This document shows positions 32,169 through 54,423 of a stretch of DNA of 64,000 bases, piece by piece (positions within the stretch are counted from its first letter, which is position 1; each line of letters opens with the position of its first letter). This DNA comes from Dysgonomonas sp. Marseille-P4361 (GTDB lineage Bacteria; Bacteroidota; Bacteroidia; Bacteroidales; Dysgonomonadaceae), in NCBI RefSeq assembly GCF_900343125.1, contig NZ_OPYL01000001.1, positions 496,001 to 560,000 of the forward strand, given 5' to 3'. The translations under genes were made by a program, and so were the position numbers. The notes below the pieces were generated by a model, which worked only from the letters and a program-made list of their open reading frames with translations, had not been told where the DNA came from and searched no databases.

Positions 32169-32241
32169 GGTGCCATAGCTCAGTTGGTAGAGCAAAGGAC
32201 TGAAAATCCTTGTGTCCCCGGTTCGATTCCTGGTGGCACCA
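32169..32241 (+). tRNA. tRNA-Phe (anticodon GAA), attachment gene of the 22-kb element
   Basis: 73 nt. Acceptor arms GGTGCCA/TGGCACC, anticodon loop CTGAAAA giving GAA, T-loop GGTTCGATTCC, discriminator A. Its last 22 bases plus two more are repeated at 54400-54423, and the gene is intact after the insertion. Confidence 0.97.
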
Positions 32242-32243
32242 CT
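32220..32243 (+). repeat. attL: tRNA-Phe 3' end copy
   Basis: 24-bp sequence starting GGTTCGATTCCTGGTGGCAC and ending CACT, identical to 54400-54423. The bases on both sides differ between the two copies. Confidence 0.95.
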
Positions 32244-32351
32244 GAAAAAGAAAGTAAAATCAAGTAAACTCCTGAGTTTCAAGTAAATTCGGGAGTTTTT
32301 TGTTTTAGGCGTAAAGCAAAAAATAGCGGTTTAAAGCAATAAAATGGGACG

Positions 32352-32395
32352 AAATGGTGACTATTTTTTAGAGCTCTCAAAAAAATCACCTAATT
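32352..32395. promoter_or_regulatory. Integrase arm-type site candidates, left end
   Basis: GGTGACTATTTTTTAG (from 32356) and, in opposite orientation, AAAAAAATCACCTAATT (32379-32395). The second is the inverse of TAGGTGATTTTTT at the right end. They lie between attL and the integrase gene. Confidence 0.5.
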
Positions 32396-32481
32396 GAATT
32401 TATTGCATTGTTACACAGTGTTTTGCGTAGCTGTTGTGTCGGGCTAATTCCTTAATTTTGTATTACTTAAATTAAGGAGAA

Positions 32482-33717
32482 ATGAAAAGAAATGTATTTA
32501 GCATTTTGTTCTTTTTGAAAAAAGGACAGCCAATGAAAAACGGAGAAATGCCCGTTTGCTTAAGAATTAATGTGAATAGGCAACGTGTTGAAATCAGAAC
32601 ACGCAGAAGCATTGACCCAAAACTATGGTGTCAGGCTAAAGAACGTTCAAGAGGGCGTGACAGACTATCGCAAGACCTTAACCATTACATCGAAATCTCA
32701 CGAGTAAGGCTTTATCAGATTTTTGAAAAACTGGAAAGGGAAGAAAAGCCTGTTTCAGCAAAGATCGTCCTAGATATCTTCAATGGTAAGACTGAGAATA
32801 GTCAGCGAACATTACTTGGAGTATTCAAGGAACATAATGAGCAATGCCGTCAGTTGATAGGTATTGACTACGTCGCTATAACTGTCAATCGTTATGATTT
32901 GTGTTGTCGCTACCTTGGCGAATTGATCAGCAAAGAATATCATCTTGAGGACCTTCCATTGAAAGAAATAGATAATGAATTTATCAGAAAATTCGAACTG
33001 TATTTGAAAACAGAAAGAGGCTGTGCTCAAAATACTGTCATTCGTTATATGAAAGCTTTTAAGAAAGTCATCAATTTGGCTATCGCCAATGATTGGATTT
33101 CTTGCAATCCTTTTGCAGGAATTAGATTCCACGAAAAAGAAGTAGTTAAAGAAGTGTTGACAAAAGAAGAGCTTCAAATTATGATTCAGAAAGAGCTTTC
33201 TGTACCAAGACTGGAACTCGTTCGCGATGTGTTTATATTTTGCACTTTTACGGGTTTGGCTTTTGTGGATGTCAGTCAACTAAAACCAGAGCATGTTGTA
33301 AAGGATACTAAAGGTAAGCTATGGATAAGAAAACATCGGCAAAAGACAAAAAATATTTGTAACATCCCTTTACTAGAGATACCTCAAATTATTTTGGATA
33401 AATATAAAGACCATCCTATCTGTAAAAAGAAAGGTGTATGCTTGCCAGTTATGGCAAATCAAAAGATGAATTCTTACCTAAAGGAAATTTCTGATTTGTG
33501 TGGAATTGAGAAAAATATTAGCACTCATACAGCCCGACATACATTTGCTACCCAAATTTGCCTTTCAAATGATGTTCCTATGGAAACAGTTTCTAAAATG
33601 CTTGGACACTCCAGTCTGAAAATGACACAATTGTATGCTAAAGTGATTGATACAAAAATCAGCAAGGATATGGATGCTTTGGCTAATCGGATTGAGGGTA
33701 AATATGGGGAGATGTAA
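32482..33717 (+). CDS. IntDOT-like tyrosine recombinase of the tRNA-Phe element
   Basis: 411 residues. N-terminal arm-binding domain (residues 1-~85, LFFLKKGQPMKNGEMPVCLR), core-binding domain (~100-210), catalytic domain. Motifs: HTARHTFATQICL (HxxR), KMLGHSSLKMTQLYAKV (His and nucleophile Tyr). The first catalytic Arg is Ala (FTGLAFVDVS), as known for the IntDOT branch of Bacteroides integrases. Read away from tRNA-Phe and attL, 238 bp from attL. It should catalyse integration and, with an HTH partner, excision. Confidence 0.95.
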   Translation: MKRNVFSILFFLKKGQPMKNGEMPVCLRINVNRQRVEIRTRRSIDPKLWCQAKERSRGRDRLSQDLNHYIEISRVRLYQIFEKLEREEKPVSAKIVLDIFNGKTENSQRTLLGVFKEHNEQCRQLIGIDYVAITVNRYDLCCRYLGELISKEYHLEDLPLKEIDNEFIRKFELYLKTERGCAQNTVIRYMKAFKKVINLAIANDWISCNPFAGIRFHEKEVVKEVLTKEELQIMIQKELSVPRLELVRDVFIFCTFTGLAFVDVSQLKPEHVVKDTKGKLWIRKHRQKTKNICNIPLLEIPQIILDKYKDHPICKKKGVCLPVMANQKMNSYLKEISDLCGIEKNISTHTARHTFATQICLSNDVPMETVSKMLGHSSLKMTQLYAKVIDTKISKDMDALANRIEGKYGEM

Positions 33718-33908
33718 GTACCAGCTTTTTTCTTCTCTTCTCACAAAAGAACAGGAAGCGAATAAAACGCCAAACTCTAGTCCTTGCGGATTTCTGATCG
33801 AAAAGTTTGTCTAATTTATTCCACTTCCTGTAAGGGGAAGGTTACAGAAAAGAAAAAAAGAAAATAATATTTATTGGTTTATATGGGAGTGAGATTTGGC
33901 TGTATCAG

Positions 33909-34214
33909 CTAATCTTGCTCCCATGCTTTGTAATAGTTATCCTCCAACATTTTTTCTATATCCGATAGTTTGTAGAGAATCTTGCCTTCCAGTTTGTAGA
34001 AAGCAATTCTTCCCTTATCCCTGTAATCCTGCAAAGTACGTTGACTTATATGGAGCATCTCGCAAACCTGATTATTGTTCAAATAACGCTCTTGACTGTG
34101 AGAAGAAGATAAACAATCCAAGCCTGCTTCCAGATTCTCGGCTACTTCATCAATAGCAGTCAATAGTTCTTTTATCTCTTCCGAATTGGAGTTTAGAAAA
34201 TCGTTTGATTCCAT
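33909..34214 (-). CDS. HTH protein 1 (excisionase-like)
   Basis: 101 residues. The helical N-terminus (~50 residues) is followed by a MerR-type winged helix: YLNNNQVCEMLHISQRTLQD, YRDKGRIAFYKLEGKILYKL. Pairs of such genes next to the integrase are usual in Bacteroides mobilizable elements, where they act in excision or its control. Paralogue of the next gene, 23 bp away. Confidence 0.85.
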   Translation of the reverse strand: MESNDFLNSNSEEIKELLTAIDEVAENLEAGLDCLSSSHSQERYLNNNQVCEMLHISQRTLQDYRDKGRIAFYKLEGKILYKLSDIEKMLEDNYYKAWEQD

Positions 34215-34237
34215 ATTTTTACCTCAATATTTTTATA

Positions 34238-34507
34238 CTATCTTTTTGATTTCTCAACAAATGCGTGCACATCACTTGCCTTGTAGTAGCATTTATGACC
34301 GATCATCGAATAAGCAAGGACTCCTCTTTCCCGATAGCTTTGCAAGGTACGAAGTGAGATATTCAGTAGCTGACAGACATCCTGATTGTCCAGCCATTCT
34401 TCACTATTTCCATAACGAGCCAAACCCCTGCTCTTTTCAAGTAAAAGCTTAATACGCTCCGTCACCTTGTCTAAGGCTTTTCTATCTATAATTTTCAATT
34501 CCATCAT
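34238..34507 (-). CDS. HTH protein 2 (excisionase-like)
   Basis: 89 residues from the ATG at 34507 (MMELKIIDRKALDKV), preceded by an A/G-rich AAGGAAAAAG; a start 13 codons earlier is possible. Winged helix EWLDNQDVCQLLNISLRTLQ, SYRERGVLAYSMIGHKCYYK. Same fold as HTH protein 1 with which it is probably co-transcribed. Likely accessory factor for the integrase or a regulator of the mobilization genes. Confidence 0.85.
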   Translation of the reverse strand: MMELKIIDRKALDKVTERIKLLLEKSRGLARYGNSEEWLDNQDVCQLLNISLRTLQSYRERGVLAYSMIGHKCYYKASDVHAFVEKSKR

Positions 34508-34546
34508 ATCTTTTTCCTTTTTATTTATCGTTATACACTTCTGCAA

Positions 34547-35177
34547 ATAAATAGATTAATTTTCATAGTATCCCCTTGTTTTTAGTTACTGGCAGCTTGT
34601 GTCTGCCTATGTCTGAGATCTATGACATGAATATTATTCGCAAAAACAAAGATCTGTATTTGCTTGTAACAGATAGCAAAATCAAAATAAAGTTGTAGTG
34701 GTTGGCAGCGATTGGCTTCGCTATAAAAAACACGTTCGGACGAGATAACTCTAAATTATAAAAGATAGATTGCTTCATAATCTAATTTTACAATTAATCA
34801 ATCCCACAAATAGTTGTTCAATTATTCTATTGATTTGATGTTAAAACAGCCTCCTATATTTATTTCAATACTGCATTCACAAAGTCCATCATTATTATGT
34901 ACTCATACAGTACTATTTGAGATATACTTCTGTGTCAATCGGGAATTATCCATACAGCAGAATCCGGCACTCCAACCCTCTTTGCTATACGATTGAAAAT
35001 GAAAATTACAGCAATACAGCGAATAAGACTCTCTGATAATGTGTTGATAACTAGAGTCTAAAATCTTTTTAGTTTCTTGGGGATGATTCTTTACGTATTC
35101 AGGTTTTTATTTCAGAAATGAACGAAGTAGAGGAATTACTAAGTCCATCTTTTATTCACTCATTAATTCTTTAAATA
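34547..35177. other. Non-coding stretch in the element
   Basis: About 630 bp with no convincing gene. Short hairpins occur (GGCAG/CTGCC near 34590; AGCGA/TCGCT near 34708). It probably holds the divergent promoters for the HTH pair and the DUF3408-like gene. A 60-codon frame at 34814-34996 looks like chance. Confidence 0.4.
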
Positions 35178-35489
35178 ATGAAACACAAAAAGATCTCCAA
35201 AGAGAAATACATCGCTCTGTTCTGTCGGGATAAGCGTGTTCGGGGGCGCAATGCGATCTACGTCAGTCCCGAAGTACACAGAAGACTGAAAAGGATAGCT
35301 GCTTTATTCCGATTCGAGCATTATACCAGCTTGTCTTCTTTAGCTGATCGGATTCTAGATCATCATATTGAAACCTATGGGGAGCTTCTGACTCAACTGA
35401 AAGAAGAAGCCGACAATAGATTCTTGAACGGTTCAGGTTATTCAACGAATAACGAGGATCTTGACGAAGATCCTGAAGAAAGCGATTGA
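35178..35489 (+). CDS. DUF3408-like mobilization accessory protein
   Basis: 103 residues. Basic N-terminus, then IYVSPEVHRRLKRIAALFRF and LSSLADRILDHHIETYGELL, resembling the ribbon-helix-helix-like DUF3408 proteins of Bacteroides conjugative and mobilizable elements; an acidic tail follows. Probably binds DNA in the transfer region. The assignment rests on the pattern and on the place before oriT and mob genes. Confidence 0.6.
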   Translation: MKHKKISKEKYIALFCRDKRVRGRNAIYVSPEVHRRLKRIAALFRFEHYTSLSSLADRILDHHIETYGELLTQLKEEADNRFLNGSGYSTNNEDLDEDPEESD

Positions 35490-35522
35490 TTGTTATATGC
35501 TACTCAATCTTTCAATTGAATG

Positions 35523-35545
35523 AATCCGCCTCACAGCGGATTTTC
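35523..35545 (+). terminator. Terminator after the DUF3408-like gene
   Basis: Stem AATCCGC / GCGGATT with a 6-nt loop, followed by TTTC; 34 bp after the stop codon. Confidence 0.6.
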
Positions 35546-35668
35546 TTAGACACTGGTCTAAGGCGAGTTGTATTTTGAGCCACCGGAAATAAATTCCAGC
35601 CACTCAAAATAACTCGCCCACTCATCTGTCGATTCGGGGAAGGACAGCTCCCAAGTCGCCGTCCGAAT
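35546..35668. other. Candidate oriT region
   Basis: Three nested inverted repeats in 120 bp just upstream of the mob genes: TTAGAC/GTCTAA (35546-35561), a long pair GGCGAGTTGTATTTTGAG (35562-35579) against CTCAAAATAACTCGCC (35603-35618), and ATTCGG/CCGAAT (35632-35668). Transfer origins of Bacteroides mobilizable elements lie in this position and have such structure; the nick site cannot be read. Confidence 0.5.
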
Positions 35669-35709
35669 GATAAGTTTATGATAGAATAAAAACTTAAAGA
35701 CTTTTTACA

Positions 35710-36147
35710 ATGAAAAAAGAGAATCAGAATATTGGACGAAAGTCCAAGGTAGGCAGGAAGCCCAAAGCCAATCCTGCGATCTTTCGCTGTGATGTCCGAT
35801 TGAACGAAACGGATAACTGTAAGTTTGAAACATTATTCGAATTATCAGGATTTAAATACAGAGGACATTTCATTAAAGATAAAGTACTGAATACTCCTAT
35901 GAAAATTATAGAGATAGATAAGACAATCAACGATTATATCATCAAACTATCTCAAATCAGGAGTCAAATGAGAGGAATTGGCAATAATTACAATCAGGTT
36001 TTACGCTTACTTAAAGAACAGTTAGGTGAGCGAAAAGCATTGGCTTATCTCTATAAATTGGAGAAAGCCATGATCGAATTGGTACACACCTACAAAGAAG
36101 TAGAACAACAGTTACAAATACTGGAGATAAAATGGTTGCAAAAATAA
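35710..36147 (+). CDS. Mobilization protein (MobC/MbpA-type relaxosome component)
   Basis: 145 residues. N-terminus rich in Lys/Gly, then IFRCDVRLNETDNCKFETLF, FKYRGHFIKDKVLN and the helical IDKTINDYIIKLSQIRSQMR with GIGNNYNQVLRLLKE, the pattern of plasmid mobilization relaxosome proteins of the MobC type. It should bind oriT and help the relaxase. Its 3' end overlaps the relaxase gene by 16 bp. Confidence 0.85.
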   Translation: MKKENQNIGRKSKVGRKPKANPAIFRCDVRLNETDNCKFETLFELSGFKYRGHFIKDKVLNTPMKIIEIDKTINDYIIKLSQIRSQMRGIGNNYNQVLRLLKEQLGERKALAYLYKLEKAMIELVHTYKEVEQQLQILEIKWLQK

Positions 36148-37379
36148 GCTCGAATACCTCCCTTTTTGGTACACTTCTGTACAATAAAAATAAGATGGAT
36201 AAGGAGGAAGCGAAATTGCTTTCTTCTAAAAATGTATATGAAAGAGCAGACAGATTATTCTCTATGCAGACAACGATCAAGTCGTTTGAGCCTTACTTGA
36301 TAGCCAATAAGAGAACTGAAAAACCGATCTTTCATGTATCGCTAAATCCGAATGCAAAAGATATACTCTCAGATGAACATTACCAAGACATAGCCGACCG
36401 CTATATGGAAGACATGGGTTATGGGAATCAGCCCTATGTGGTATTTAAACATACGGATATAGACAGAATTCATCTTCACATTGTTTCCATCAGGATAGAT
36501 GAAGCTGGCAAGAAGTTGGATTCTAACTTTGAGAATATGCGTTCGATGAAGATATGCAGGCAAATAGAGAAATATTTTAATCTTCATCCGGCTACCAAAC
36601 AGGAACAGCAAGCTTATAGCATTCCAACCAAACCGCTCAATTACAAAGAAGGCAATGTAAAACAACAAGTGGGCAATATTGCCAAAGCAGTATTGAATAA
36701 CTACAAATTCCAATCCATAGGAGAATTCCGAACACTTTTAGAAAAAATTAATGTAAGTGTGGAAGAAGTCAAAGGCTTAAAAAATGGAAAACCTTATCAC
36801 GGACTTGTGTATTCAGCTTTAACAGACAATTCAACAATAATGAAAAAAGAGAAGATCGGTACTCCTTTTAAGTCTTCACTCTTTGGTAAATCTATTAATA
36901 TGCAAACTCTTGAAAAACACTTTGAGAAGTCGAAGCAACAGATACAGGACAGCAAGACAAAAGAATACCTCAAACCGATACTCGTTAAAGCGATGCAACA
37001 ATCAGGATCAATGGATGAGTTCAAATTGCTATTGAAAGAGAAAAACATAGAGCCGATATTCCGTCAGAATGAGGAAGGACAAATCTATGGTGTTAGCTTT
37101 ATAGATTATCAAAACAAAACGATTCTTAATGGCTCACGAATAGGGAAAGAGTTTGCGGCAAACGCATTTCATGAAAAGTTTGCGGATGAAAATAAAGTTT
37201 TGACTATATTAGCAGAGCAAACAAAGAACAAGATTGAATTTGAGCCGGATTTTATAGTTCCTTTATTCCCATCACTATTTGAGCAGCACAGCACAGATTA
37301 TGAGGCTGAGAATTTTGCAAAAGAAAAGCAAAAGGAGGAAGAAATCAGAAAGAGGAAAAACAAAGGTCGAGGTTTATAA
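36132..37379 (+). CDS. Relaxase/mobilization nuclease (MobP family)
   Basis: 415 residues. Relaxase domain in residues ~1-190: KPIFHVSLNPNAKDILSDEH, then YVVFKHTDIDRIHLHIVSIR with the metal-binding His triad (HTD...HLH) and VYERADRLFSMQ upstream; the likely nucleophile Tyr lies in the N-terminal part. The C-terminal half is helical and repeats a small module twice (FRTLLEKINVSVEEV, FKLLLKEKNIEPIF). Nicks oriT and pilots the strand through a helper conjugation system. It ends the mobilization block; a 190-bp gap leads to the glycan operon. Confidence 0.92.
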   Translation: MVAKISSNTSLFGTLLYNKNKMDKEEAKLLSSKNVYERADRLFSMQTTIKSFEPYLIANKRTEKPIFHVSLNPNAKDILSDEHYQDIADRYMEDMGYGNQPYVVFKHTDIDRIHLHIVSIRIDEAGKKLDSNFENMRSMKICRQIEKYFNLHPATKQEQQAYSIPTKPLNYKEGNVKQQVGNIAKAVLNNYKFQSIGEFRTLLEKINVSVEEVKGLKNGKPYHGLVYSALTDNSTIMKKEKIGTPFKSSLFGKSINMQTLEKHFEKSKQQIQDSKTKEYLKPILVKAMQQSGSMDEFKLLLKEKNIEPIFRQNEEGQIYGVSFIDYQNKTILNGSRIGKEFAANAFHEKFADENKVLTILAEQTKNKIEFEPDFIVPLFPSLFEQHSTDYEAENFAKEKQKEEEIRKRKNKGRGL

Positions 37380-37470
37380 TGTATTATCAAATCTGATAAT
37401 TGGATATATCATATGCTCTTTAAGTGTGTAATATAGGAATGTAATAATTAAAAGGTTTGTATATAAAATG

Positions 37471-37501
37471 TTGGTCGGTTGGTAATTAATCTTTAATTTT
37501 G
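37471..37501 (+). promoter_or_regulatory. Promoter of the exopolysaccharide operon
   Basis: TTGG at 37471-37474 and TAATTTTG at 37494-37501 with a 19-bp gap fit the Bacteroidetes consensus (one mismatch in -33). It leaves a leader of about 60 nt before the first gene. No invertible-promoter repeats were seen around it. Confidence 0.65.
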
Positions 37502-37569: not shown

Positions 37570-39951
37570 ATGATAAAAAAGATATTTTTTCTTCTAATTT
37601 TAATTATGCCTTTATGTCTTTCTGCGCAGATGTCGGATAGTCAGGTAATCGAATATGTTAAGTCAGAACATGCAAAAGGAACAAGTCAAGATGCAATAGG
37701 GAAAGCATTACTCCAAAGAGGAGTGACTCAGGCTCAACTTTTAAAAATCAAAAGTCAGGTAGAGCAAGAAAAGCGAGCAAGCACTTCTACTTCCCAAAGA
37801 GCGTCTTCTGAGTCTGTATTGAGAGAAAGTGCTGAGGAATATTACCCTCAAAGGATGAAAGATTCAATACGCTCTTCTAAGCGCAAAATATTTGGTAAAG
37901 ATGTTTTTAGTCAGAAAGATTTGACTTTTGCTCCAACAATGAATATTCCTACTCCTACTAATTACAAATTAGGTGCTGGGGACGAAGTAGTCATTGATAT
38001 TTGGGGTGCATCACAAACAACAATAAGAAAAACAATAACTCCCGAAGGAAGTGTTAATATTGAGAGCTTAGGACCAGTCTTCCTAAGTGGAATGACTATT
38101 GAGCAGGCTAACGAAATTGTCCGTAGAAAACTTTCAAATCTGTATGCTGGTGTAGATGAGGAAGGTGGTGCTTCATACATAAGTTTGACATTAGGCCAAA
38201 TTCGTAGTATACAGGTTAATGTAATGGGTGAAGTTGTTACTCCTGGTACTTATACTGTATCCTCATTATCTTCTGTGTTTCACGCTCTATATTTAGCGGG
38301 AGGAATAAACGATATAGGATCTTTGCGTACTGTTAACTTGTACAGAGGAGGCAAGAAAGTCGCTTCGGTTGATATTTATGACTTTATTCTTCGTGGGCAA
38401 ACTCCAGATGATATTAGGTTATCTGATGGCGATGTTATTGTAGTTCCAGCTTATCAATCACTGGTAAATATCACAGGAGAGATCAAGCGTCCGATGTGGT
38501 ATGAAATCACTAGCGATGAGCATGCTAGTGATTTGATTAACTATGCTGGAGGATTTACTGGAGAAGCTAATGTTGAAAATATTAGCTTAAGTAGAAAAAC
38601 AGGTAAGTATAGGCAGATGTATACGCTTGACCCTGAGACAATGCTCTCTTTTACTCTGGCAGATGGTGACAGTATTGCTATCGGTAAAGGCTTGGACCGA
38701 TACGATAATAGGGTTCAGATAGATGGTAGTGTTTTATTCCCAGGCTATTATGAAATAGGGGGTGATATAAGAACTGTTGCTGATTTGATAAAAAAAGCCG
38801 GAGGCCTAAAAGAAGATGCGTTTCTTGATCGAGCCGTTCTTACTAGAGAAAAGGATGACTTGACTTTTGAAACATTAGCTTTGAATCTGAATAATTTAGA
38901 ATCTAGTGCTTCTGGAAATACTCAGTTGAAGAAAAATGATATCTTGTATATTGCTGCAAATACAATTGATGAAGATTTAGGGGATTTCACAATTGCAGGA
39001 ATGATTGCGAATCCAGGGCAATATAGCTTTGCCGAAAATACGACTATAAAAGACCTTATAGTAAGAGCCGGAGGTTTGCTTAGTTCAGCTTCTACAGCCA
39101 GAGTAGATGTTTCCCGTAGAATCATTGATCCTGCTAGTACTACTAATGCAACGATTATAGCAGAGACGTTTTCTTTTTCTATTGAAGATGGGTTAATTGC
39201 AGATGGTAAAGCTAATTTTGTGTTAGAGCCTTATGATCAAGTGTATGTAAGAAAAAGCCCAGGTTTTCAAGAACAACGTAATGTCCGAATTGACGGAGAA
39301 GTCCTATTCCCTGGGGCATATACATTGGTTGAGAAAGAACAAAGAGTATCGGAGATTATTAAGCTTGCTGGAGGCCTCTCAAACAATGCTTATGCAGAAG
39401 GTGCTCGTTTGATTAGAACAATGACGGATGATGAAATAGCTAGACAAAAACAATCTCTAGCAATGTTAGCCAGAGGTACAATGAAAGATTCAATTTCAAC
39501 AGAATCATTAGAAACAAGCAGGCAATATACTGTAGGGATTGAACTCGAACAAGCTATAAAAAATCCTAAATCAGAATATGATATCGTTTTAAGAGAAAAC
39601 GATAGATTAATTATCCCAGAGTTTAATAATACGATTAAGATAAATGGAGCGGTTATGCATCCGAATACCGTTTTATATAAAAAAGGGGAACCTCTTAAAT
39701 ACTATATAGAACAAGCTGGGGGCTATAGTGATCTTGCTGAAAAGAAGAGAGCTTATATCGTATATATGAATGGAATGACTGCAAAAGCTAAAGGTTCGAG
39801 TAAAGATTTGATAAAACCAGGGTGCGAGATAATTGTTCCAACTAAAGAAGAAAAAGAAAAAATGTCTCTGGGACAAACTATCGCTCTCGGTTCTAGTATA
39901 ACTTCTATGGCTTCTGTTATTGCTTTATTAATTAACTCTCTAACGAAATAA
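37570..39951 (+). CDS. Outer-membrane polysaccharide export protein, SLBB-rich (Wza-like)
   Basis: 793 residues. Signal peptide (MIKKIFFLLILIMPLCLSAQ), helical segment, Poly_export domain (~140-215: YKLGAGDEVVIDIWGASQTT), then about six SLBB repeats, e.g. INVMGEVVTPGTYTV-like, VNITGEIKRPMWYEI, VQIDGSVLFPGYYEI, FTIAGMIANPGQYSF, VRIDGEVLFPGAYTL and IKINGAVMHPNTVLY, and a C-terminal hydrophobic helix. Forms the export channel for the glycan. First gene of the operon, 3 bp before the chain-length gene. Confidence 0.93.
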   Translation: MIKKIFFLLILIMPLCLSAQMSDSQVIEYVKSEHAKGTSQDAIGKALLQRGVTQAQLLKIKSQVEQEKRASTSTSQRASSESVLRESAEEYYPQRMKDSIRSSKRKIFGKDVFSQKDLTFAPTMNIPTPTNYKLGAGDEVVIDIWGASQTTIRKTITPEGSVNIESLGPVFLSGMTIEQANEIVRRKLSNLYAGVDEEGGASYISLTLGQIRSIQVNVMGEVVTPGTYTVSSLSSVFHALYLAGGINDIGSLRTVNLYRGGKKVASVDIYDFILRGQTPDDIRLSDGDVIVVPAYQSLVNITGEIKRPMWYEITSDEHASDLINYAGGFTGEANVENISLSRKTGKYRQMYTLDPETMLSFTLADGDSIAIGKGLDRYDNRVQIDGSVLFPGYYEIGGDIRTVADLIKKAGGLKEDAFLDRAVLTREKDDLTFETLALNLNNLESSASGNTQLKKNDILYIAANTIDEDLGDFTIAGMIANPGQYSFAENTTIKDLIVRAGGLLSSASTARVDVSRRIIDPASTTNATIIAETFSFSIEDGLIADGKANFVLEPYDQVYVRKSPGFQEQRNVRIDGEVLFPGAYTLVEKEQRVSEIIKLAGGLSNNAYAEGARLIRTMTDDEIARQKQSLAMLARGTMKDSISTESLETSRQYTVGIELEQAIKNPKSEYDIVLRENDRLIIPEFNNTIKINGAVMHPNTVLYKKGEPLKYYIEQAGGYSDLAEKKRAYIVYMNGMTAKAKGSSKDLIKPGCEIIVPTKEEKEKMSLGQTIALGSSITSMASVIALLINSLTK

Positions 39952-46047: not shown

Positions 46048-47201
46048 ATATTTTATTTTACTTTGAAACAACTATTAACCCTGTTCTTGGTGGTGTTCAG
46101 AGAATTACTTATTTTCTTAGTAAATTCTTTGAAGCTAATGGGATTAGTACTTTTTTCCTTTCTGCGAGGAAAAAAGGCGATGTAATATTATCTAATCAAT
46201 ATCATCTTCCCATAGAAACAAGGGTGAATATAACTCAGAATGAAGTATTCTTTAAATCTCTTATTCGAGGAAAAAAGATTGATTTAGTAATAAATCAGTC
46301 TTCAATTAACCCTAGAGAAAGTGCTGATATTGTATTTTGGACAAAACAGTTAGATGTAAAAACAATCTCAGTATTCCACAGTACTTTAGATGGAATGTAT
46401 GGAGTTAGAGGTGGCCATTTGAATTTTATAAAAACAATACTGCCTTACGGTAGCTTTATGGCTAAAATTGCGGATTTAATGCTAATACATTTTTTTAAGT
46501 ACAAGTATTCTGAACAATATGAGAAAATAGGAAGAAATAGCGATGCTATAGTTACTTTATCTGATAAATTTAGAGATGAAGTTTCAATCTTCACAAAAAG
46601 TGAGGTTGACAAGGTTAGAGCTATTCCTAATCCCGTAACAATTAAATATCCAGAAATTGATATGGAGAAGGAAAAGACATTACTCTTCGTTGGACGTTTG
46701 TGCACTGAGAAACAAGTTGATATATTGGTTAATATTTGGAATAAAATATATAAAGATTTCCCAGATTGGAATCTGAAAATTTTAGGCAATGGAAGTAAAT
46801 ATTCAGAAATCAAAAATTTAATATCAAAGTTAGAAGTAAAGAATATAGAACTTTTAGGTTTTCAACAACCAGAGAAATATTATGAAAAGGCTTCTGCTTT
46901 TTGTCTGACTTCAGCCTATGAGGGTTTTGGGCTAGCTCTAGTAGAAGCAATGGCGTATGGGGTAGTCCCTATTGCTTTTAATAGTTACCCAAACGTCGTA
47001 GATATTATCGACGATCAAAAAAATGGTTATCTCGTAATGCCTTTTGATCTGGATGAGTATGCAGAAAAATTAAAAAAAATAATGAAAGATGATAGCTTGA
47101 GGAATGAAATGGCAAAGTCAGCTAAAGCTAAAAGTTTAGAGTTTAATATAGAGAGTATTGGTCACCAATGGCTTAATCTGTTTAATGAAATTTTGAAATA
47201 A
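46044..47201 (+). CDS. Glycosyltransferase family 4
   Basis: 385 residues, GT-B fold. N-domain with VLGGVQRITYFLSKFFEANG; C-domain with KTLLFVGRLCTEKQVDILVN, LKILGNGSKY, NIELLGFQQPEKYYEKASAF and CLTSAYEGFGLALVEAMAYG, the EX7E motif (E in YEGFG, E in LVEA). Retaining transferase from a nucleotide sugar; donor unknown. Confidence 0.93.
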   Translation: MNILFYFETTINPVLGGVQRITYFLSKFFEANGISTFFLSARKKGDVILSNQYHLPIETRVNITQNEVFFKSLIRGKKIDLVINQSSINPRESADIVFWTKQLDVKTISVFHSTLDGMYGVRGGHLNFIKTILPYGSFMAKIADLMLIHFFKYKYSEQYEKIGRNSDAIVTLSDKFRDEVSIFTKSEVDKVRAIPNPVTIKYPEIDMEKEKTLLFVGRLCTEKQVDILVNIWNKIYKDFPDWNLKILGNGSKYSEIKNLISKLEVKNIELLGFQQPEKYYEKASAFCLTSAYEGFGLALVEAMAYGVVPIAFNSYPNVVDIIDDQKNGYLVMPFDLDEYAEKLKKIMKDDSLRNEMAKSAKAKSLEFNIESIGHQWLNLFNEILK

Positions 47202-47206
47202 AAGTA

Positions 47207-48166
47207 ATGTTTGCAATATTAAAGAAGAAGCTTAAAAATAATGTAACGATTAAACATCTAGTATGGAAAACGAAGGCTATGTTGAGCCGCCTACTCTATA
47301 CTGATAAAGAATTTTTGTTTAAAAAATATAGACAAACCTATGGATATTTACCCAACATAGAATGCCCTAAGCTATTTAATGAAAAATTACTATGGACTCA
47401 GTTGAATTACAGAGACGATCTATATGCCAGATGTGCAGATAAGTATGCGGTTAGAGCTTATGTACAAGAGAAAGTTGGAGAGAAGTATCTCATAAAATGT
47501 TTAGGAATTTATCGTAAATGGGAAGAGATTAATCTGGATTCATTGCCAAAATCTTTTGTGTTAAAAGCTACACATGGATCAGGTTGGAACTTTCTTTGCC
47601 CTGATAAAGCAAGATTAAATATAAAGGATTGTAGGAATGAGATAAATTATTGGTTGTCTACAAACTACTATGTTAAGAATAGGGAATGGAATTATAAATA
47701 TATTGAACCAAGGGTGATATGTGAAGAATTTATTGGTGAAGAATCCGGAACTCCTCCATTAGACTATAAGTTCTATTGTTTTAATGGTGTTGTTAAATTT
47801 GTTCAGTTATGTATTGATCGGTATGAAGGTGAACAAAAACACAATATTTATGATACGGATTGGAAGCAGATCAAGAATGTCAGAACGACAATGGAGCAGG
47901 ATTTCACTAGGGAATATAAAAAGCCTGAGAAATGGGAAGAGATGCTTGAGATCTCGCGAAAATTATCAGAGGACTTCAACTTTGTGAGAGTTGATCTTTA
48001 CTACATTAATAATATAATATATTTTGGAGAATTAACTTTCTTCCCTGGTGGTGGTATATATACTCATTTTTCACCAAATTCTTTTCATGCTGAGATGGGT
48101 TCTTGGCTAACTCTTCCTGATAGGAATATTGATGTATGGAATGAACCAAATATATATATTGATTGA
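47207..48166 (+). CDS. TupA-like ATP-grasp protein
   Basis: 319 residues. Motifs of the TupA-like ATP-grasp family: YGYLPNIECPKLFNEKLLW, CADKYAVRAYVQEKVGEKYL, KSFVLKATHGSGWNFL, PRVICEEFIGEESGTPPLDY and the C-terminal FVRVDLYYINNIIYFGELTF, TFFPGGG. Family members occur in capsule loci and probably add an amino acid or other acid to the glycan through an acyl phosphate. Its end overlaps the next gene by 4 bp. Confidence 0.9.
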   Translation: MFAILKKKLKNNVTIKHLVWKTKAMLSRLLYTDKEFLFKKYRQTYGYLPNIECPKLFNEKLLWTQLNYRDDLYARCADKYAVRAYVQEKVGEKYLIKCLGIYRKWEEINLDSLPKSFVLKATHGSGWNFLCPDKARLNIKDCRNEINYWLSTNYYVKNREWNYKYIEPRVICEEFIGEESGTPPLDYKFYCFNGVVKFVQLCIDRYEGEQKHNIYDTDWKQIKNVRTTMEQDFTREYKKPEKWEEMLEISRKLSEDFNFVRVDLYYINNIIYFGELTFFPGGGIYTHFSPNSFHAEMGSWLTLPDRNIDVWNEPNIYID

Positions 48167-49080
48167 TAATAACTATGGTGACATTTTCAATAATAATTCC
48201 TCATAAGAATTCCACGAAGTTGTTGGATAGATTATTAAGTTCTATCCCCGATGTTGATGATATTGAAGTTATTGTAATCGACAATAATAGTACTAAAGAA
48301 GAAAAGGAGAAACTTCGTAGTATAGAGACCCGAGGGAATGTTATTCTTCTTGAAGATGATTCAGGACTAGGTGCTGGTAAAGCACGAAATGTAGGATTAG
48401 AAAGAGCGAAAGGAGAATGGATAATCTTTGCTGATGCAGATGACTATTTCTCTTCAGACATGTATTCATTAATAAATAAGTATAAAGATACGAAATATGA
48501 TATAATATATTTTGATACTTATAGTATTTATAATGAGTCTGGGAATGAAGCATATAGGCATCAAAGATATTCGAATTTAGTACATGATTTTATTAATAAA
48601 GGCGAGGAAGATGCATTAAGGTATTATTATACTCCACCTTGGGGAAAAATGATACGACGAAAAATCGTTTCTGATAATAAACTTGTATTTGACGAAGTGA
48701 TAACATCGAATGATATCTATTTTTCTCTTACATCGGCATTCAGAGCAGGGAGTATTGCGGCCTGTTCAAATGTCCTATATATAATCACAGTCACTGCTGG
48801 AAGTCTAACTAATACATTTAGTCTAAAACATTTCGATGCTCGATTAGAAACAGCTTTAAAAGCGAATTGTTTTTTGCGTAAAATTGGGAAAAAGAAATAT
48901 CAGCAATCTGTTTTGTACTTTATAGCAAAGTGTCCTAAATTCGGATTAGGATATTCTCTTAGTGTATTTAAAAGATTAATACAACATAGATCAAATATTT
49001 TTGTCGGATTCTCTAAGTTTTTTAAATATAAATCAGTATTGAAAGAGAGAGAAAATAGAAAATATTTAGTAAAGAGTTAA
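48163..49080 (+). CDS. Glycosyltransferase family 2
   Basis: 305 residues, GT-A fold. TFSIIIPHKNSTKLLDRLLS, VIVIDNNSTKEEKE, GAGKARNVGLERAKGEWIIF, ADADDYFSSDM (DxD metal site in DAD), then PPWGKMIRRKIV and SNDIYFSL. Inverting transferase; donor unknown. The ORF begins with MIITM and may start at the second Met (48175). Confidence 0.92.
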   Translation: MIITMVTFSIIIPHKNSTKLLDRLLSSIPDVDDIEVIVIDNNSTKEEKEKLRSIETRGNVILLEDDSGLGAGKARNVGLERAKGEWIIFADADDYFSSDMYSLINKYKDTKYDIIYFDTYSIYNESGNEAYRHQRYSNLVHDFINKGEEDALRYYYTPPWGKMIRRKIVSDNKLVFDEVITSNDIYFSLTSAFRAGSIAACSNVLYIITVTAGSLTNTFSLKHFDARLETALKANCFLRKIGKKKYQQSVLYFIAKCPKFGLGYSLSVFKRLIQHRSNIFVGFSKFFKYKSVLKERENRKYLVKS

Positions 49081-49086
49081 TGTTCT

Positions 49087-49833
49087 ATGGACAGGAAGAG
49101 AATTTTAAATATTAGTATAGATAATATATCAGAACAAGAACTTCTTGAGAAATTAACAGAAGGTTTTGTTGTGACTCCAAATGTTGATCATCTCGTGAAG
49201 TTGCAAAAAGACAAAGAGTTCTATGATGTATATGAATCAGCAGATATAGTTATTTGTGATAGTAAAATCTTAGCATTGGCTTTTAAATTTTTAGGTACTC
49301 CAATAAAAGAAGCTATACCTGGTTCATCTTTTTTTTCTCATTTTTATGAATATCATAAGGATAATGAAAATCTAAAAGTTTTTTTATTGGGAGCTGCAGA
49401 AGGAGTAGCACTAAAGGCTCAAGAAAATATTAATAAAAAGGTAGGTAGGGATATTATTGTTGGAGCGCACTCTCCATCCTATGGTTTCGAGAAAAATGAA
49501 GAAGAATGTATGCAGATAATCGATATAATAAACTCTTCGTCGGCTACAGTATTACTTGTAGGCGTGGGTGCTCCTAAACAAGAAAAATGGATATATAAGT
49601 ATAAAGACAAACTACATAATATTAAAATATTTTTGCCATTAGGCGCTACAATTGATTTTGAAGCTGGTTATGTAAAAAGAGCTCCTATAATATTTCAAAA
49701 GTTAGCTTTGGAGTGGCTATATCGAATATGTCAAGATCCTAAAAGGTTGATAAGTCGATATTTAGTTGATGATGTGATTTTCTTTAAGTATTTAATTCAG
49801 CAAAAGTTAAAATTATATCGGAATCCCTTTTAG
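49087..49833 (+). CDS. WecG/TagA/CpsF family glycosyltransferase (GT26)
   Basis: 248 residues. Motifs: FVVTPNVDHLVKLQKD, SADIVICDSKILALAFKFLG, EAIPGSSFFSHFYE, VFLLGAAEGVALKAQ, LLVGVGAPKQEKWI and LPLGATIDFEAGYVKRAP. GT26 enzymes add the second sugar (often ManNAc or a uronic acid derivative) to the undecaprenyl-linked primer, so this is likely an early step. The primer enzyme itself is not in the element. Confidence 0.93.
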   Translation: MDRKRILNISIDNISEQELLEKLTEGFVVTPNVDHLVKLQKDKEFYDVYESADIVICDSKILALAFKFLGTPIKEAIPGSSFFSHFYEYHKDNENLKVFLLGAAEGVALKAQENINKKVGRDIIVGAHSPSYGFEKNEEECMQIIDIINSSSATVLLVGVGAPKQEKWIYKYKDKLHNIKIFLPLGATIDFEAGYVKRAPIIFQKLALEWLYRICQDPKRLISRYLVDDVIFFKYLIQQKLKLYRNPF

Positions 49834-49855
49834 GCCAATTAATATATGACAAACT

Positions 49856-51681
49856 ATGGAATATAGAAAAGATATCCAAGGACTTAGAACAATTGCTGTT
49901 TTATTCGTCTTCATTTTTCATCTTAATTCAAACTGGTTACCCGGTGGATTTATTGGAGTTGATATTTTCTTTGTAATATCTGGCTACCTGATATCCTCCA
50001 TTATTTTATCGAAGTTAGATAGAAACAAATTCACGTTTATAGACTTTTATAAAAGTAGAATAAAAAGAATCATTCCGGCATACTATTTTCTATTACTTAT
50101 AGTGGCTGTCATAGGACTCTTTGCCATAATCCCACCAGAGGTTGGCTCTTTTAGAAAATCGCTATTTTGGTCATTACTTTTCAATTCAAATAACTATTTT
50201 GCTACACTAGACACCTATTTTGGTACTGCAAACATAGAGAATCCACTTCTGCACACCTGGACATTAGCTGTGGAAATGCAGTTTTACTTATTTTTACCTT
50301 TAATTTTATTTTGGGTAAAAAGAAAATGGTTACTCCCTTTAATTACTGTATTTACAATAGCTTTATTTGCATATTCCTCTGTTGAAATATTCCTTAATAA
50401 TAATCAACAGACTATGTATTATTCTTTATTATCACGTACTCCCGAATTTTTCATGGGGGTACTTATTAGTCTGATTCCTGCTTTTAAAACAAAGAAACCT
50501 GAAAAATACTCATTCCCTTTAAGCTTGGTTGGGCTAGTGTTATTATTTAGCAGTGCCTTTATTTTGAATGGAGAATCAGATTTTCCAGGTTTATATGCCA
50601 TTGTTCCTTGTTTGGGTGCAGGTTTGCTGATCGCTTACCCTAGCAATTACATTCAAAAGATTCTATCCCAAAAGTATATTGTATATATAGGAGAGCTATC
50701 GTATTCAATGTATTTGTGGCATTGGCCAATTATGGCATTTATAAGATACTATTATAATACAATATCATTATCCTTTTTACAATATGGGATTGTCATTGTA
50801 CTAACTATTTTATTATCTCTATTCTCTTATTATACAATAGAAACACCTCTGAGAAAGAAAAAAGATAGGAAGTTTATTATATATCTAGGAGGTATGGCTA
50901 TTCTTTGTTGTGGGTTAATCCTAACTATACCCAAAGCAAGTAAGAAAATTTCACCAATTCCACTAACATATATTATGCCTTCTTTTGGTTTGGAATCGCA
51001 TGGGCATACTTTTAAAGGAGTAGGGATATATGGTGATTCAACAGCAAGTAATGATAGCATACTGTTAATTGGAGATAGCCATGCTTCAAATTTCTCATGT
51101 TACATGGATTATCTTGGTAAAAAGAATCACTTTGCATTCAGAAAAATAAGCAATAACTCCTATCCTTTAATTCCAGAAATAGAGAGCGAAATATTTGGAA
51201 AAAAAGAACAAGGAGGCTATACGAACTATCTTAAATTAATTGAATATGCCAATAAAGAGATAGCCAATAGCAAGATTATCTTTTTGCAATATTTTGCGAA
51301 ACATAGTGAAAAATGGGAAGATGAAGTTTGTTCCCTTATTGATAACCTTAAAAACGATCAGTATCTTATATTAGTTTCCGATTTTCCTGAATTAGATAAA
51401 AATCCTGTTAGAGAAAACAGAAATTATATAAAGGACAAGAGTAGAGAAAACAAATATAAAGTGACTTGGCATAAACCAACGGAAAAAGTGATTAATTATA
51501 TAGCATCTAGTCCTAATGCGTTTACTTGGATTTATCATATACTAAGGTCTTTGACAATGCTCCATTTTATAATGATACGCTGATATATTATGATGTGAAT
51601 CATGTAAACGTATATGGAATGAAATTGTATGCACAAGATACTGAAAATGAGTTTGTCAAATTGCTTAACAGTCTGAGATAA
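49856..51681 (+). pseudogene. OafA/YrhL-type acyltransferase with SGNH domain, 3' frameshifted
   Basis: In-frame part 49856-51583 (575 codons): Acyl_transf_3 membrane domain (MEYRKDIQGLRTIAVLFVFI, FHLNSNWLPGGFIGVDIFFV, HTWTLAVEMQFYLFLPLILF) and the start of a periplasmic SGNH domain with LLIGDSHASNFSCY (catalytic Ser). The frame then ends in a nonsense tail (HILRSLTMLHFIMIR). From about 51544 the +1 frame continues as KVFDNAPFYNDTLIYYDVNH and runs to TAA at 51681; DVNH is the SGNH Asp-x-x-His. An indel near 51525-51545 therefore removes the catalytic pair. The membrane half could still be made. Confidence 0.85.
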
Positions 51682-51877
51682 ACTATAAAGATGGTTATTA
51701 ATGTGACAACTTTTATTTTTCTCTTGTAGTACGGATTAAAAAGTACGAATTATGCAATTGCGTGAATAGCTATCATCTAATGTGAAGTAGTAGTTCAAAA
51801 TAGAAAGCTTTGTTGATTTCTAAAGTATGATTACTAAGGGTTTTATGATAAAAGATGAATAATAAAATATTTGAATT

Positions 51878-52882
51878 ATGACTCAGGATAATACTACTCG
51901 TGTAGAGTGGGTTGACTTAGCTAAAGGTATAACAATACTTTTAGTTGTTCTTGGACATGTACTAAGAGGATTAGATTCTGCTAATCTTATTAATGACCAA
52001 GCTACATGGAACATTGATATTGATAGAATAATATATAGTTTTCATATGCATCTGTTTATGATATTGTCTGGACTTTTTTTTGTCAAAAGCATACATAAAT
52101 ATGAGCCGATAGGACTTCTGAAAAATAAAACAAAGACAGTTTTATACCCTTATATTGTATGGTCAATTCTTCACACAGCTATAGAAGTAGTTTTGTCAAA
52201 TTTTACAAATGGGAATATTCAACCCGATACACTTCTAACATGTGTTTTTATTCCTAGAGCACATTTTTGGTTTCTTTTTGCGTTATTTTTTATTAATTTA
52301 ATTAATATAATCTTTTATACTTTATTCAGGAGTCATTGGCTTATTCTCTCTTCTGTGATGGGGGGGATATGTTATTTTCTTTCTTTAGATTTATCTATTT
52401 TCACGGCAACATTCAAATTCCTCTTATTTTTTAATATTGGGATAATTGTTTCTACAACGATATTTGACACTAAAACAGTAACAATACTATCTAAGAAAAA
52501 ATATTTAATTTTATCTCTACTTATGTTTATTATAATTCAAAGTTTGAATTTATCTAGCAGTCTTACTTATTATACAGTATTTAAGTTTATTATTGCTATT
52601 ATAAGCAGTCTTTTCTGCATCATAGGGTCACTTGTTTTATCAAGCTATATGAGAAATATTTTTGCTAGGGGAATTAAACTTCTTGGCGAAAATACAATGT
52701 ACATATATATTATGCATATATTGATAACAGCAGGGATAAGAATATTTTTAATTAGGATTGATGTAACAAATGTTTATATCCATGTAATACTAGGGACAAT
52801 CATAGGAATTGTAATTCCTTGCCTTATTGCGATTAAATTTAGAAAGAATAAATACTTCGATATATTGTTTAGGTTACCATAA
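51878..52882 (+). CDS. Acyltransferase family 3 (fucose 4-O-acetylase-like) membrane protein
   Basis: 334 residues, about 10 membrane spans. RVEWVDLAKGITILLVVLGH (catalytic His), IYSFHMHLFMILSGLFFVKS, PYIVWSILHTAIEVVL and HFWFLFALFFINLINIIFY. Probably O-acetylates a sugar of the glycan. May partly replace the broken acyltransferase upstream. A 196-bp gap without gene precedes it. Confidence 0.87.
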   Translation: MTQDNTTRVEWVDLAKGITILLVVLGHVLRGLDSANLINDQATWNIDIDRIIYSFHMHLFMILSGLFFVKSIHKYEPIGLLKNKTKTVLYPYIVWSILHTAIEVVLSNFTNGNIQPDTLLTCVFIPRAHFWFLFALFFINLINIIFYTLFRSHWLILSSVMGGICYFLSLDLSIFTATFKFLLFFNIGIIVSTTIFDTKTVTILSKKKYLILSLLMFIIIQSLNLSSSLTYYTVFKFIIAIISSLFCIIGSLVLSSYMRNIFARGIKLLGENTMYIYIMHILITAGIRIFLIRIDVTNVYIHVILGTIIGIVIPCLIAIKFRKNKYFDILFRLP

Positions 52883-52900
52883 ATAAAAATTAATATAATA

Positions 52901-54223
52901 ATGAAAATAGTAATAGTAGGAACAGGCTATGTCGGATTAGTAACAGGGACTTGTTTTGCAGAAATGGGAACAGATGTTACTTGTGTTGATATAGATGAAA
53001 AAAAAATAGAGAACCTCCGAAATGGAATTATTCCAATATATGAACCCGGACTAGAAGATTTAGTGAAAAGTAATTATAAGTCAGGGCGGCTAAAATTCGC
53101 TACCGATCTTTCGTCTGTTGTAAATGATGTAGATATAATTTTCTCTGCAGTAGGAACTCCTCCTGATGAAGATGGAAGTGCTGATCTACGTTACGTATTA
53201 GATGTGGCACGAACTATAGGACAGAATATAAATAAATATATCGTTGTAGTGACGAAAAGTACTGTACCTGTAGGAACAGCTCAAAAAGTCAAGTCGGTAA
53301 TACGAGAGGAACTTGACAAAAGAGGTAAAACAGATATTGAGTTTGATGTTGCTTCTAACCCTGAATTCCTGAAAGAAGGTGCTGCTGTTCAGGATTTCAT
53401 GAGACCAGATCGTGTAGTCGTTGGTACCGAATCAGAAAAGGCAAAAAAAATGATGGAAAAACTCTACAGCCCTTTTATGCTGAATAACTACAGAATTATA
53501 TTTACAGATATTCCATCAGCAGAAATGATTAAATACGCTGCTAATGCTATGCTTGCAACTAGGATAAGCTTTATGAACGATATTGCTAACCTTTGTGAGA
53601 TAGTAGGGGCAGATGTCAATATGGTGCGCAAAGGTATAGGTACTGATACTCGTATCGGAACAAAGTTTCTTTATGCAGGATGTGGATATGGTGGAAGTTG
53701 TTTTCCTAAAGATGTCAAGGCGATTATCAAGACTGGAGAAAAATATGGTTATAAATTAGAGCTGCTTGAAGCTGTTGAAAATGTAAACGAACGTCAAAAG
53801 CATATTCTTTTTCAGAAACTGATGGATTATTATGACGGGAATATAAAGGGAAAAACAATCGCTTTGTGGGGACTATCTTTTAAGCCAAAAACAGATGATA
53901 TGCGTGAAGCTCCTTCTTTAGTATTAATAGATCAAATACTAAAAGCAGGAGGTAAAGTGAAAGCATACGATCCTATTGCTATTGAAGAGACTAAGAGACG
54001 CATAGGTGATACTATCGAGTATGCCAAGGATGCGTACGATGCTACAGTTGATGCTGATGCCATATTATTGGTGACCGAATGGAATGAGTTCAGGCTTCCA
54101 TCATGGAGTGTTATAAAGAAGACAATGAAAAAACCTGTAGTTTTTGACGGACGAAATATATATAACAAAAATGAGCTCAAAGATCTTGGTTTTGATTATT
54201 CAGGTATCGGAATAAGTATTTGA
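52901..54223 (+). CDS. ugd: UDP-glucose/GDP-mannose dehydrogenase family enzyme
   Basis: 440 residues. Oxidises a UDP-sugar twice to a uronic acid, most likely UDP-glucose to UDP-glucuronate. NAD-binding start MKIVIVGTGYVGLVTGTCFA, VDIDEKKIENL, STVPVGTA, NPEFLKEGAAVQDFMRPDRV, catalytic Cys in AGCGYGGSCFPKDVKA, and C-domain LWGLSFKPKTDDMREAPSL. Full length. Last gene of the element, 176 bp before attR. Symbol by family; the exact substrate is not proven. Confidence 0.93.
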   Translation: MKIVIVGTGYVGLVTGTCFAEMGTDVTCVDIDEKKIENLRNGIIPIYEPGLEDLVKSNYKSGRLKFATDLSSVVNDVDIIFSAVGTPPDEDGSADLRYVLDVARTIGQNINKYIVVVTKSTVPVGTAQKVKSVIREELDKRGKTDIEFDVASNPEFLKEGAAVQDFMRPDRVVVGTESEKAKKMMEKLYSPFMLNNYRIIFTDIPSAEMIKYAANAMLATRISFMNDIANLCEIVGADVNMVRKGIGTDTRIGTKFLYAGCGYGGSCFPKDVKAIIKTGEKYGYKLELLEAVENVNERQKHILFQKLMDYYDGNIKGKTIALWGLSFKPKTDDMREAPSLVLIDQILKAGGKVKAYDPIAIEETKRRIGDTIEYAKDAYDATVDADAILLVTEWNEFRLPSWSVIKKTMKKPVVFDGRNIYNKNELKDLGFDYSGIGISI

Positions 54224-54238
54224 TAAAATAAATGTATA

Positions 54239-54270
54239 AAGAGATTCATTGACAAATGAGTCTCTTTTTG
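54239..54270 (+). terminator. Terminator of the exopolysaccharide operon
   Basis: Stem AGAGATTCATT / AATGAGTCTCT (one G-T pair) followed by TTTTTG, 16 bp after the ugd stop. Confidence 0.8.
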
Positions 54271-54323
54271 TATCTTTGAATGAATAGGAATTTCCCAAAG
54301 CAATTCCTTGCAAAATACTGCGA

Positions 54324-54344
54324 AATTTAGGTGATTTTTTAGGG
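54324..54344. promoter_or_regulatory. Integrase arm-type site candidate, right end
   Basis: AATTTAGGTGATTTTTTAGGG. It shares TAGGTGATTTTTT with the left end, in inverted orientation, and lies 56 bp inside attR. Confidence 0.5.
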
Positions 54345-54399
54345 ATTACCACCAGAAGGAGGAATGATATAAGCTTGAATTAAAGCATTATATATTTAT

Positions 54400-54423
54400 G
54401 GTTCGATTCCTGGTGGCACCACT
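54400..54423 (+). repeat. attR: second copy of the tRNA-Phe 3' end
   Basis: Identical 24 bp to 32220-32243. The sequence before it (ATATTTAT) is not tRNA-like, so this is a fragment left by integration and not a tRNA gene. Confidence 0.95.

Follow-up and report, generated by a model that had tools for sequence, protein, structure and literature searches.

A probable integrative mobilizable element with a 13-gene glycan operon as cargo at the tRNA-Phe gene of Dysgonomonas sp. Marseille-P4361

The window analysed here is a stretch of 64,000 nucleotides from contig NZ_OPYL01000001.1 of Dysgonomonas sp. Marseille-P4361 (genome of 3.30 Mb in 13 contigs, completeness 99.8%), in which a tRNA-Phe gene is followed by an integrase gene, a mobilization module and a glycan operon. 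The 24-bp sequence GGTTCGATTCCTGGTGGCACCACT at 32220-32243, comprising the last 23 bases of tRNA-Phe and one further base, recurs without mismatch at 54400-54423 (attR core). By our own estimate, the chance recurrence of an exact 24-mer within 64 kb is negligible, and a search of the whole genome with the 75-base tRNA-Phe query returned one full match, the 24-bp copy and two weak matches (76-78% identity). Including both repeats, the enclosed stretch 32220-54423 is 22,204 bp long. It combines an integrase gene and attachment (att) repeats at a specific site with a relaxase gene of its own, and no conjugation gene family was recognised by Pfam among the 19 element proteins scanned, as expected for an integrative mobilizable element (IME). 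We conclude with good confidence from these sequence features that 32220-54423 is an IME bounded by the exact tRNA-Phe 3’-end repeat. The original prediction for this DNA had described a mobilizable element lacking its own conjugation system, with the 24-bp copy at both ends and with an integrase, a helix-turn-helix (HTH) pair, an oriT-like region, a mob protein, a relaxase and 13 glycan genes inside. This architecture was confirmed: the proteins were found by Pfam, the 13 glycan open reading frames (ORFs) occupy 37570-54223, and a candidate origin of transfer (oriT) could be placed between the DUF3408 gene and mobC. The features are as follows (TM, transmembrane).

32169..32242, plus strand: tRNA-Phe (GAA), the attachment gene, 3’ end within the repeat (ARAGORN; Rfam RF00005)
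32220..32243, plus strand: attL core, 24 bp (exact repeat)
32266..32298, plus strand: terminator-like hairpin just inside the left end (1 found, shuffle mean 0.3)
32356..32390, plus strand: inverted pair of putative integrase arm-type sites (32356, 32378), with a right-end copy at 54329
32482..33717, plus strand: tyrosine integrase, 411 aa (Pfam Arm-DNA-bind_5, Phage_int_SAM_5, Phage_integrase)
33909..34214, minus strand: HTH_17 protein, putative excisionase or regulator (Pfam)
34238..34507, minus strand: HTH_17 protein, putative excisionase or regulator (Pfam)
35178..35489, plus strand: DUF3408 protein, putative mobilization accessory protein (Pfam)
35519..35658, plus strand: oriT candidate with hairpin 35562-35618 (conservation and fold)
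35710..36147, plus strand: MobC_2 accessory protein (Pfam PF19514, E 2.3e-42)
36132..37379, plus strand: relaxase of the CTnDOT MobB family (Pfam Relaxase; NCBIfam NF041325)
37570..39951, plus strand: large Wza-type polysaccharide export protein (Pfam Poly_export and SLBB; 84% to the UBA5412 element copy)
39955..41010, plus strand: Wzz chain-length protein (Pfam Wzz)
41101..42633, plus strand: 10-TM protein, probable Wzx flippase (TM-like stretches)
42638..43789, plus strand: FrhB/FdhB-type protein (Pfam)
43815..44972, plus strand: 8-TM protein, probable Wzy polymerase (TM-like stretches)
44956..46047, plus strand: polysaccharide pyruvyl transferase (Pfam)
46044..47201, plus strand: glycosyltransferase group 1 (Pfam)
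47207..48166, plus strand: TupA-like ATP-grasp protein (Pfam)
48163..49080, plus strand: glycosyltransferase family 2 (Pfam)
49087..49833, plus strand: WecG/TagA/CpsF glycosyltransferase (Pfam; TIGR00696 over cut-off)
49856..51583, plus strand: acyltransferase 3 fused to SGNH (Pfam)
51878..52882, plus strand: acyltransferase 3 (Pfam)
52901..54223, plus strand: UDP-glucose/GDP-mannose dehydrogenase (Pfam)
54238..54267, plus strand: terminator-like hairpin behind the last glycan gene (one of 2 found in 54200-54600, shuffle mean 0.2)
54286..54423, plus strand: right end of the element with arm-type site 54329 and attR core 54400-54423 (54286-54420 aligns to UBA5412, 78%)
54430..54464, plus strand: terminator-like hairpin just outside the element (one of 2 found in 54200-54600, shuffle mean 0.2)

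Relatives are coded G000 and so on, G000 being the own genome, G002 Dysgonomonas sp. UBA5412 and G010 Dysgonomonas sp. Marseille-P4677. Among 38 loci of integrase relatives, in which UBA5412 is counted three times (L074, L035 and L040, a C-terminal fragment), a tRNA end was located 236-306 bp upstream of the integrase gene in 29, and none was found within the sequence examined in the other 9. At 50% identity or more (n = 20), tRNA-Phe was present at 238-242 bp in 11 cases, tRNA-Leu and tRNA-Asp in one each, and no tRNA in 7. Conversely, the sequence behind tRNA-Phe in 17 genus genomes carried a family integrase in 9, a distant integrase (23-24%) in 2 and none within 1.1-3 kb in 6. By these counts, tRNA-Phe is an insertion hot spot. 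In G011 (C6:24000-74000) a tandem array at tRNA-Phe was observed, with three att copies and a family integrase behind the first two.

The element ends share further features with those of relatives. In seven of eight elements at most 9 of 300 shuffles reached the score of the match between the left and right arms, and the integrase presumably binds the arm-type sites at 32356, 32378 and 54329. Hairpins like that at 32266-32298 were also visible by eye in the left ends of other elements, and the hairpin at 54430-54464 is probably the displaced tRNA-Phe terminator. A TAnnTTTG box (54271 in the window), the Bacteroidota -7 consensus, lies 128-133 bases before the right att and reads outward in five of eight elements; G022 and G030 have nearly matching boxes. 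Its candidacy as an integrase promoter active in the circle only was dropped, as a terminator separates att from int; that the window box directly follows another terminator-like hairpin likewise counts against this role. Just right of the element, a short stretch (54534-54604) that looks like an insertion sequence (IS) transposase remnant has matches in G022, G024 and G008, several of them near contig ends.

All ORFs of the mobilization module are open. The relaxase scored 467.7 bits against NF041325 (Bacteroid_MobB, cut-off 400), which places it in this family, and 6 of its best 10 matches in plasmid records, which were 39-48% identical across those 10, are annotated mobB. Across four elements, conservation between DUF3408 and mobC amounts to 96%, and the core of the oriT block shows 94% mean column identity across five; the relaxases of elements sharing this block are 71-86% identical to that of the window. 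For the other large intergenic region conservation was 76% (four sequences), a value that is partly low because about 190 columns are absent from two of the four, so that we do not lean on the contrast with 96%. The 57-base hairpin had z scores of -3.25 in 135 bases and -5.45 in 81 bases, and none of 200 shuffles folded as well as the oriT candidate. The G016 version also folds (z -7.35), and 98 of 100 cells in the pair count were paired, the two unpaired ones belonging to the inner stem of G016, whose fold is shifted in register. No match to the oriT candidate was found in 72,556 plasmid records.

Directly behind the relaxase gene, the 13 glycan ORFs run in one direction. Wza, Wzz and the glycosyltransferases of a Wzx/Wzy-type locus were identified by Pfam, and the probable Wzx and Wzy by membrane topology, in the case of Wzx together with one relative, since the 10-TM protein is 48% identical to the product of the gene after wzz in G007. 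Neither the 10-TM nor the 8-TM protein had a Pfam or NCBIfam match. The element had been predicted to carry a whole glycan locus. This held for the 13-gene operon as cargo but not for the completeness of the locus, as the Pfam scan recognised neither an initiating glycosyl-phosphate transferase nor a Wzc kinase on the element; two PF02397 transferases are encoded elsewhere in the genome. The GC content of the sugar genes (31.1%) is lower than that of the backbone (35.9%) and of wza-wzz (35.4%). At E <= 1e-60 the genome encodes one Wza of the large type, that of the element. The idea that the element harbours the only export system of the genome was rejected, since two small Poly_export proteins are encoded at C10:57k. 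Bacteroides capsular polysaccharide loci are headed by the regulators UpxY/UpxZ; a search for such a head gave no NusG-type Pfam match (E <= 0.001) among the 13 glycan proteins. Judged from its gene content, the locus probably directs synthesis of a pyruvylated, acylated, uronic-acid-containing exopolysaccharide or capsule.

The same int-mob backbone had been predicted to occur with other glycan cargo, and it was found in Dysgonomonas sp. UBA5412. There, one contig carries tRNA-Phe and integrase residues 1-339 and a second carries residues 332-411, the integrase gene apparently being split by a further element. Products encoded on the second contig are 94% (HTH1), 88% (HTH2), 96% (DUF3408), 89% (MobC), 78% (relaxase), 84% (Wza) and 57% (Wzz) identical to those of the window. 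At the DNA level, window positions 33475-40934 align at 79%, and 54286-54420 at 78%, finishing in the att core; nothing in 40935-54285 aligns to the UBA5412 element at E <= 1e-5. The middle segment of UBA5412 encodes LegB, LegC, NeuD, NeuB and NeuC, all over their cut-offs, as well as a nucleotidyltransferase and a PseF-like protein (below cut-off), and on these family matches its cassette reads as a legionaminate-type pathway. Homologues of its seven sugar genes (43-83%) lie behind Wza-Wzz in a chromosomal locus of G013, the last one cut by the end of the stretch.

The right att core of UBA5412 is fused to a 5’-truncated second wza (G002:C10, reverse-complement positions 20841-23186), behind which follows the CYTH region, which in G003 and the own genome is separated from tRNA-Phe by about 225-230 kb. 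Inversion, deletion and assembly error are candidate readings of this junction, and the fusion might reflect an integrase-driven rearrangement into a resident export gene. No wza was present among the ORFs of the sequence examined in the CYTH regions of G010 and G000, and neither the missing 5’ part of wza nor att-like sites were found in 20 other UBA5412 contigs, of which the first 20 kb each, or the whole if shorter, were searched (about 340 kb of 3.1 Mb). An EamA transporter gene lies near tRNA-Phe in the window (29173-30072); its UBA5412 counterpart is in the CYTH region, as is one in G010, and this shifted position is a sign of rearrangement.

Furthermore, the mobilization module recurs with other integrases, tRNAs and cargo, which suggests that tRNA target, mob module and cargo are exchangeable parts. 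A second element in the own genome (G000:C13, about 46890-74910; 18-bp repeat pair enclosing 28 kb) encodes proteins 96% (HTH1), 80% (HTH2), 96% (DUF3408), 89% (MobC) and 86% (relaxase) identical to those of the window, together with an integrase of 50% identity. Its cargo (GH92, SusD and a hybrid two-component regulator) constitutes a polysaccharide-utilization locus. Its repeat resembles the tRNA-Lys end of G030, and ARAGORN found no tRNA there; another integrase gene was observed directly behind its right repeat. The G016 element is inserted at tRNA-Gln (19-bp pair, 17.8 kb) and encodes radical SAM, HlyD and GLF proteins, a cargo that, partly by eye, appears RiPP-like (ribosomally synthesized and post-translationally modified peptide). 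In G030, a genome of another genus, the module is found at tRNA-Lys with a weak 15-bp pair 30 kb apart. The G017 element at tRNA-Phe (22-bp pair, 19.9 kb) carries a type I restriction-modification system and a MobC of 40% identity; no relaxase match was found in it.

We propose that the integrase would recombine the 24-bp core common to the element and the tRNA-Phe 3’ end; because this core is the shared 3’ end, the tRNA gene would stay whole, and the terminator in the left end of the element would replace the displaced one. Excision presumably needs the integrase and an HTH_17 protein and would yield a circle. The MobB-type relaxase, with MobC_2 and DUF3408, presumably nicks the oriT candidate. 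A co-resident CTnDOT-like element would provide the coupling protein and the mating pore. As cargo, the 13-gene locus of putative Wzx/Wzy type would be started by a chromosomal initiating transferase.

Several results weigh against a mobile IME. No exact empty site was found: a search of 25 genus genomes with the right flank (54424-57500) gave matches in 7, one of them the own genome; of the matches listed, none adjoins tRNA-Phe, and the nearest one on a tRNA-Phe contig comprises 41 bases in G024, about 13 kb away. This outcome does not decide the matter, since the flank varies and contains the IS-like remnant. No pair of the oriT hairpin changed on both sides, so that the hairpin rests on conservation and fold and not on covariation. 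The G016 arm match was reached by 73 of 300 shuffles, the own right end was the best partner of the left end in just five of eight rows, and the left end of the window matches the right end of UBA5412 better than its own. No match to the helper families PF07863 and TIGR03783 was obtained in the own genome, in searches that were uninformative as their controls failed (PF07863 positive in 0 of 14; TIGR03783 over cut-off in 0 of 14, Bacteroides ihuae being without match). The close relaxase lineage looks narrow: among 393 Bacteroidales genomes, two (the own genome and G016) gave a match at E <= 1e-140; UBA5412 and G030, relaxase-positive in another search, were not among the matches of this one. 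Finally, a signal of recent transfer is not common to all genes shared with UBA5412, as synonymous divergence (dS) was 0.88 for MobC, 1.58 for the relaxase, 2.00 for Wza and 1.49 for Wzz.

Core genes gave dS values to UBA5412 of 1.89 (thiL), 2.21 (EamA) and 1.61, saturated and saturated (three CYTH-region genes). The values for int (0.41, 335 codons), HTH1 (0.51), HTH2 (0.32) and DUF3408 (0.09) are far below this level, 0.09-0.51 versus 1.6 to saturated, which argues for recent transfer of these genes. Compared with the second element of the own genome, dS was 0.18 for HTH1, 0.73 for HTH2, 0.25 for DUF3408, 0.61 for MobC and 0.58 for the relaxase. The backbone is thus a recent mosaic, some genes of which moved recently, and the Wza-Wzz head and the cargo have older histories separate from it. 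For recent movement, the original statement that a surface glycan can move as cargo is not supported, since wza and wzz are diverged at about core-gene level between the two capsule-carrying elements and int, HTH and DUF3408 less so. This difference would also be expected if the stretch were a settled genomic island, that is, a unit with true IME scars that is no longer mobile; the host would retain its polysaccharide locus, and its backbone genes would recombine homologously with those of related elements sharing the cell. The mosaic, in which int, HTH2 and DUF3408 are nearer to UBA5412 and HTH1, MobC and relaxase nearer to the own second element, is compatible with such an island, as is the presence on the element of the genome’s only large-type Wza. 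We nevertheless consider a settled island unlikely, given the open mobilization ORFs, the identical att cores, the arm-type sites at both ends and the intact oriT block.

The relaxase family, that of CTnDOT MobB, and the tra-like genes (ORFs named by eye) of a tRNA-Phe element with 57% integrase identity in Dysgonomonas sp. Marseille-P4677 would be in line with descent from a larger integrative and conjugative element (ICE) through loss of the tra genes and later gain of the glycan genes. However, UBA5412, G030, G016 and the own genome all contain the compact int-HTH-HTH-DUF3408-MobC-relaxase module, and the genes that follow immediately after the relaxase gene are unrelated, suggesting that the small form is a stable unit and making an ICE remnant very improbable. 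Slightly less credible still are two independent events, in which an IME entered tRNA-Phe and the glycan operon was inserted separately. The lower GC content of the sugar genes would speak for this reading, but the operon lies inside the att pair, wza-wzz is backbone-like in GC content, and relaxase-wza order and right end are common to UBA5412, the middle alone being different.

In a Wza tree of 15 rows, the two element copies grouped together (100/99), then with the truncated second wza of UBA5412 (100/100) and then with G007 (99/99); the ten other chromosomal rows formed a weakly supported clade (80/91), and G006 a long branch. Like the element, the chromosomal Wza-Wzz loci of Dysgonomonas have a Wza-Wzz head followed by variable sugar genes. 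Unlike in the element, Wza is mostly preceded by a conserved gene set whose last member is gmhA-like (9 of 12 regions; G006, G007 and G017 differ), and none of the 12 regions gave a match to int, HTH, mobC or relaxase. In G019 (C33:12949-15345) a gmhA-like gene is followed by a lone wza, and the sequence examined contains neither wzz nor sugar genes, as if the locus had been lost. Tentatively, and with more doubt than for the IME itself, this lineage of Dysgonomonas IMEs may be a capsule-switching vehicle, in which int, mob, the Wza-Wzz head and the right end are constant and a cassette of about 13 kb (40935-54285) is exchanged, with chromosomal Wza-Wzz loci as donor pool.

An earlier claim of novelty for this element was too strong, since mobile elements of Bacteroidetes with capsule loci were described as early as 2019. 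Jiang et al. report 22 complete or fragmented capsule loci on mobile elements of the gut, with copies of ICE9 in several species, as well as 47 polysaccharide utilization loci on mobile elements (PMC6907783), which disagrees with the original statement that Bacteroidales capsule loci are usually fixed islands. ICE9 and other capsule-carrying ICEs resemble the element in that a capsule locus is carried by an integrated element dependent on conjugation. The example named in that article is a conjugative ICE, whereas here conjugation genes were not recognised and host genus and target (tRNA-Phe) are different; capsule-bearing IMEs may be among the 22 loci (PMC6907783). According to the available text of a review, the IMEs NBU1, NBU2, Tn4399 and cLV25 encode a tyrosine integrase and a MobP relaxase, with a tRNA 3’ end as site of NBU1 and NBU2, namely tRNA-Leu and tRNA-Ser in contrast to tRNA-Phe here; CTnDOT/CTnERL-type and IncP helpers serve several Bacteroides IMEs, Tn4399 and cLV25 having one accessory factor (PMC5704250). 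The IME cargo it names comprises bacteriocin and restriction-modification genes, and neither "polysaccharide" nor "capsul" occurs in its main text (PMC5704250). The relaxase belongs to the same family as that of the CTnDOT MobA/MobB system (NF041325), but a coupling protein and tra genes were not recognised on the element. Escherichia coli pheV islands share the tRNA-Phe target and modular cargo, their integrase gene alone being conserved, and a kps locus served as end mark in the methods of that study; they differ in their P4-type integrase, and no relaxase module is described in the accessible text (PMC11537424). A full-text search of limited coverage brought up no account of a Dysgonomonas IME with capsule genes. 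Thus, both Bacteroides IMEs at tRNA ends and Bacteroidetes mobile elements with capsule loci have precedents, and a Dysgonomonas IME with a switched-cassette relative is added here.

Altogether, base-exact boundaries, an oriT candidate and conserved ends are given for an element with a surface-polysaccharide locus. The differing ages of backbone and cargo caution against taking att boundaries as evidence of joint movement of cargo and integrase. With a second species that shares ends and head and has another cassette, these data make possible a concrete test of whether Bacteroidales coats are exchanged as IME cargo or by chromosomal recombination only. Because UBA5412 shares ends and transfer genes and differs in sugar genes, such elements may act as exchangeable coat cassettes. 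If the lineage is indeed a capsule-switching vehicle, the entry or recombination of one element would alter the cell surface in a single step.

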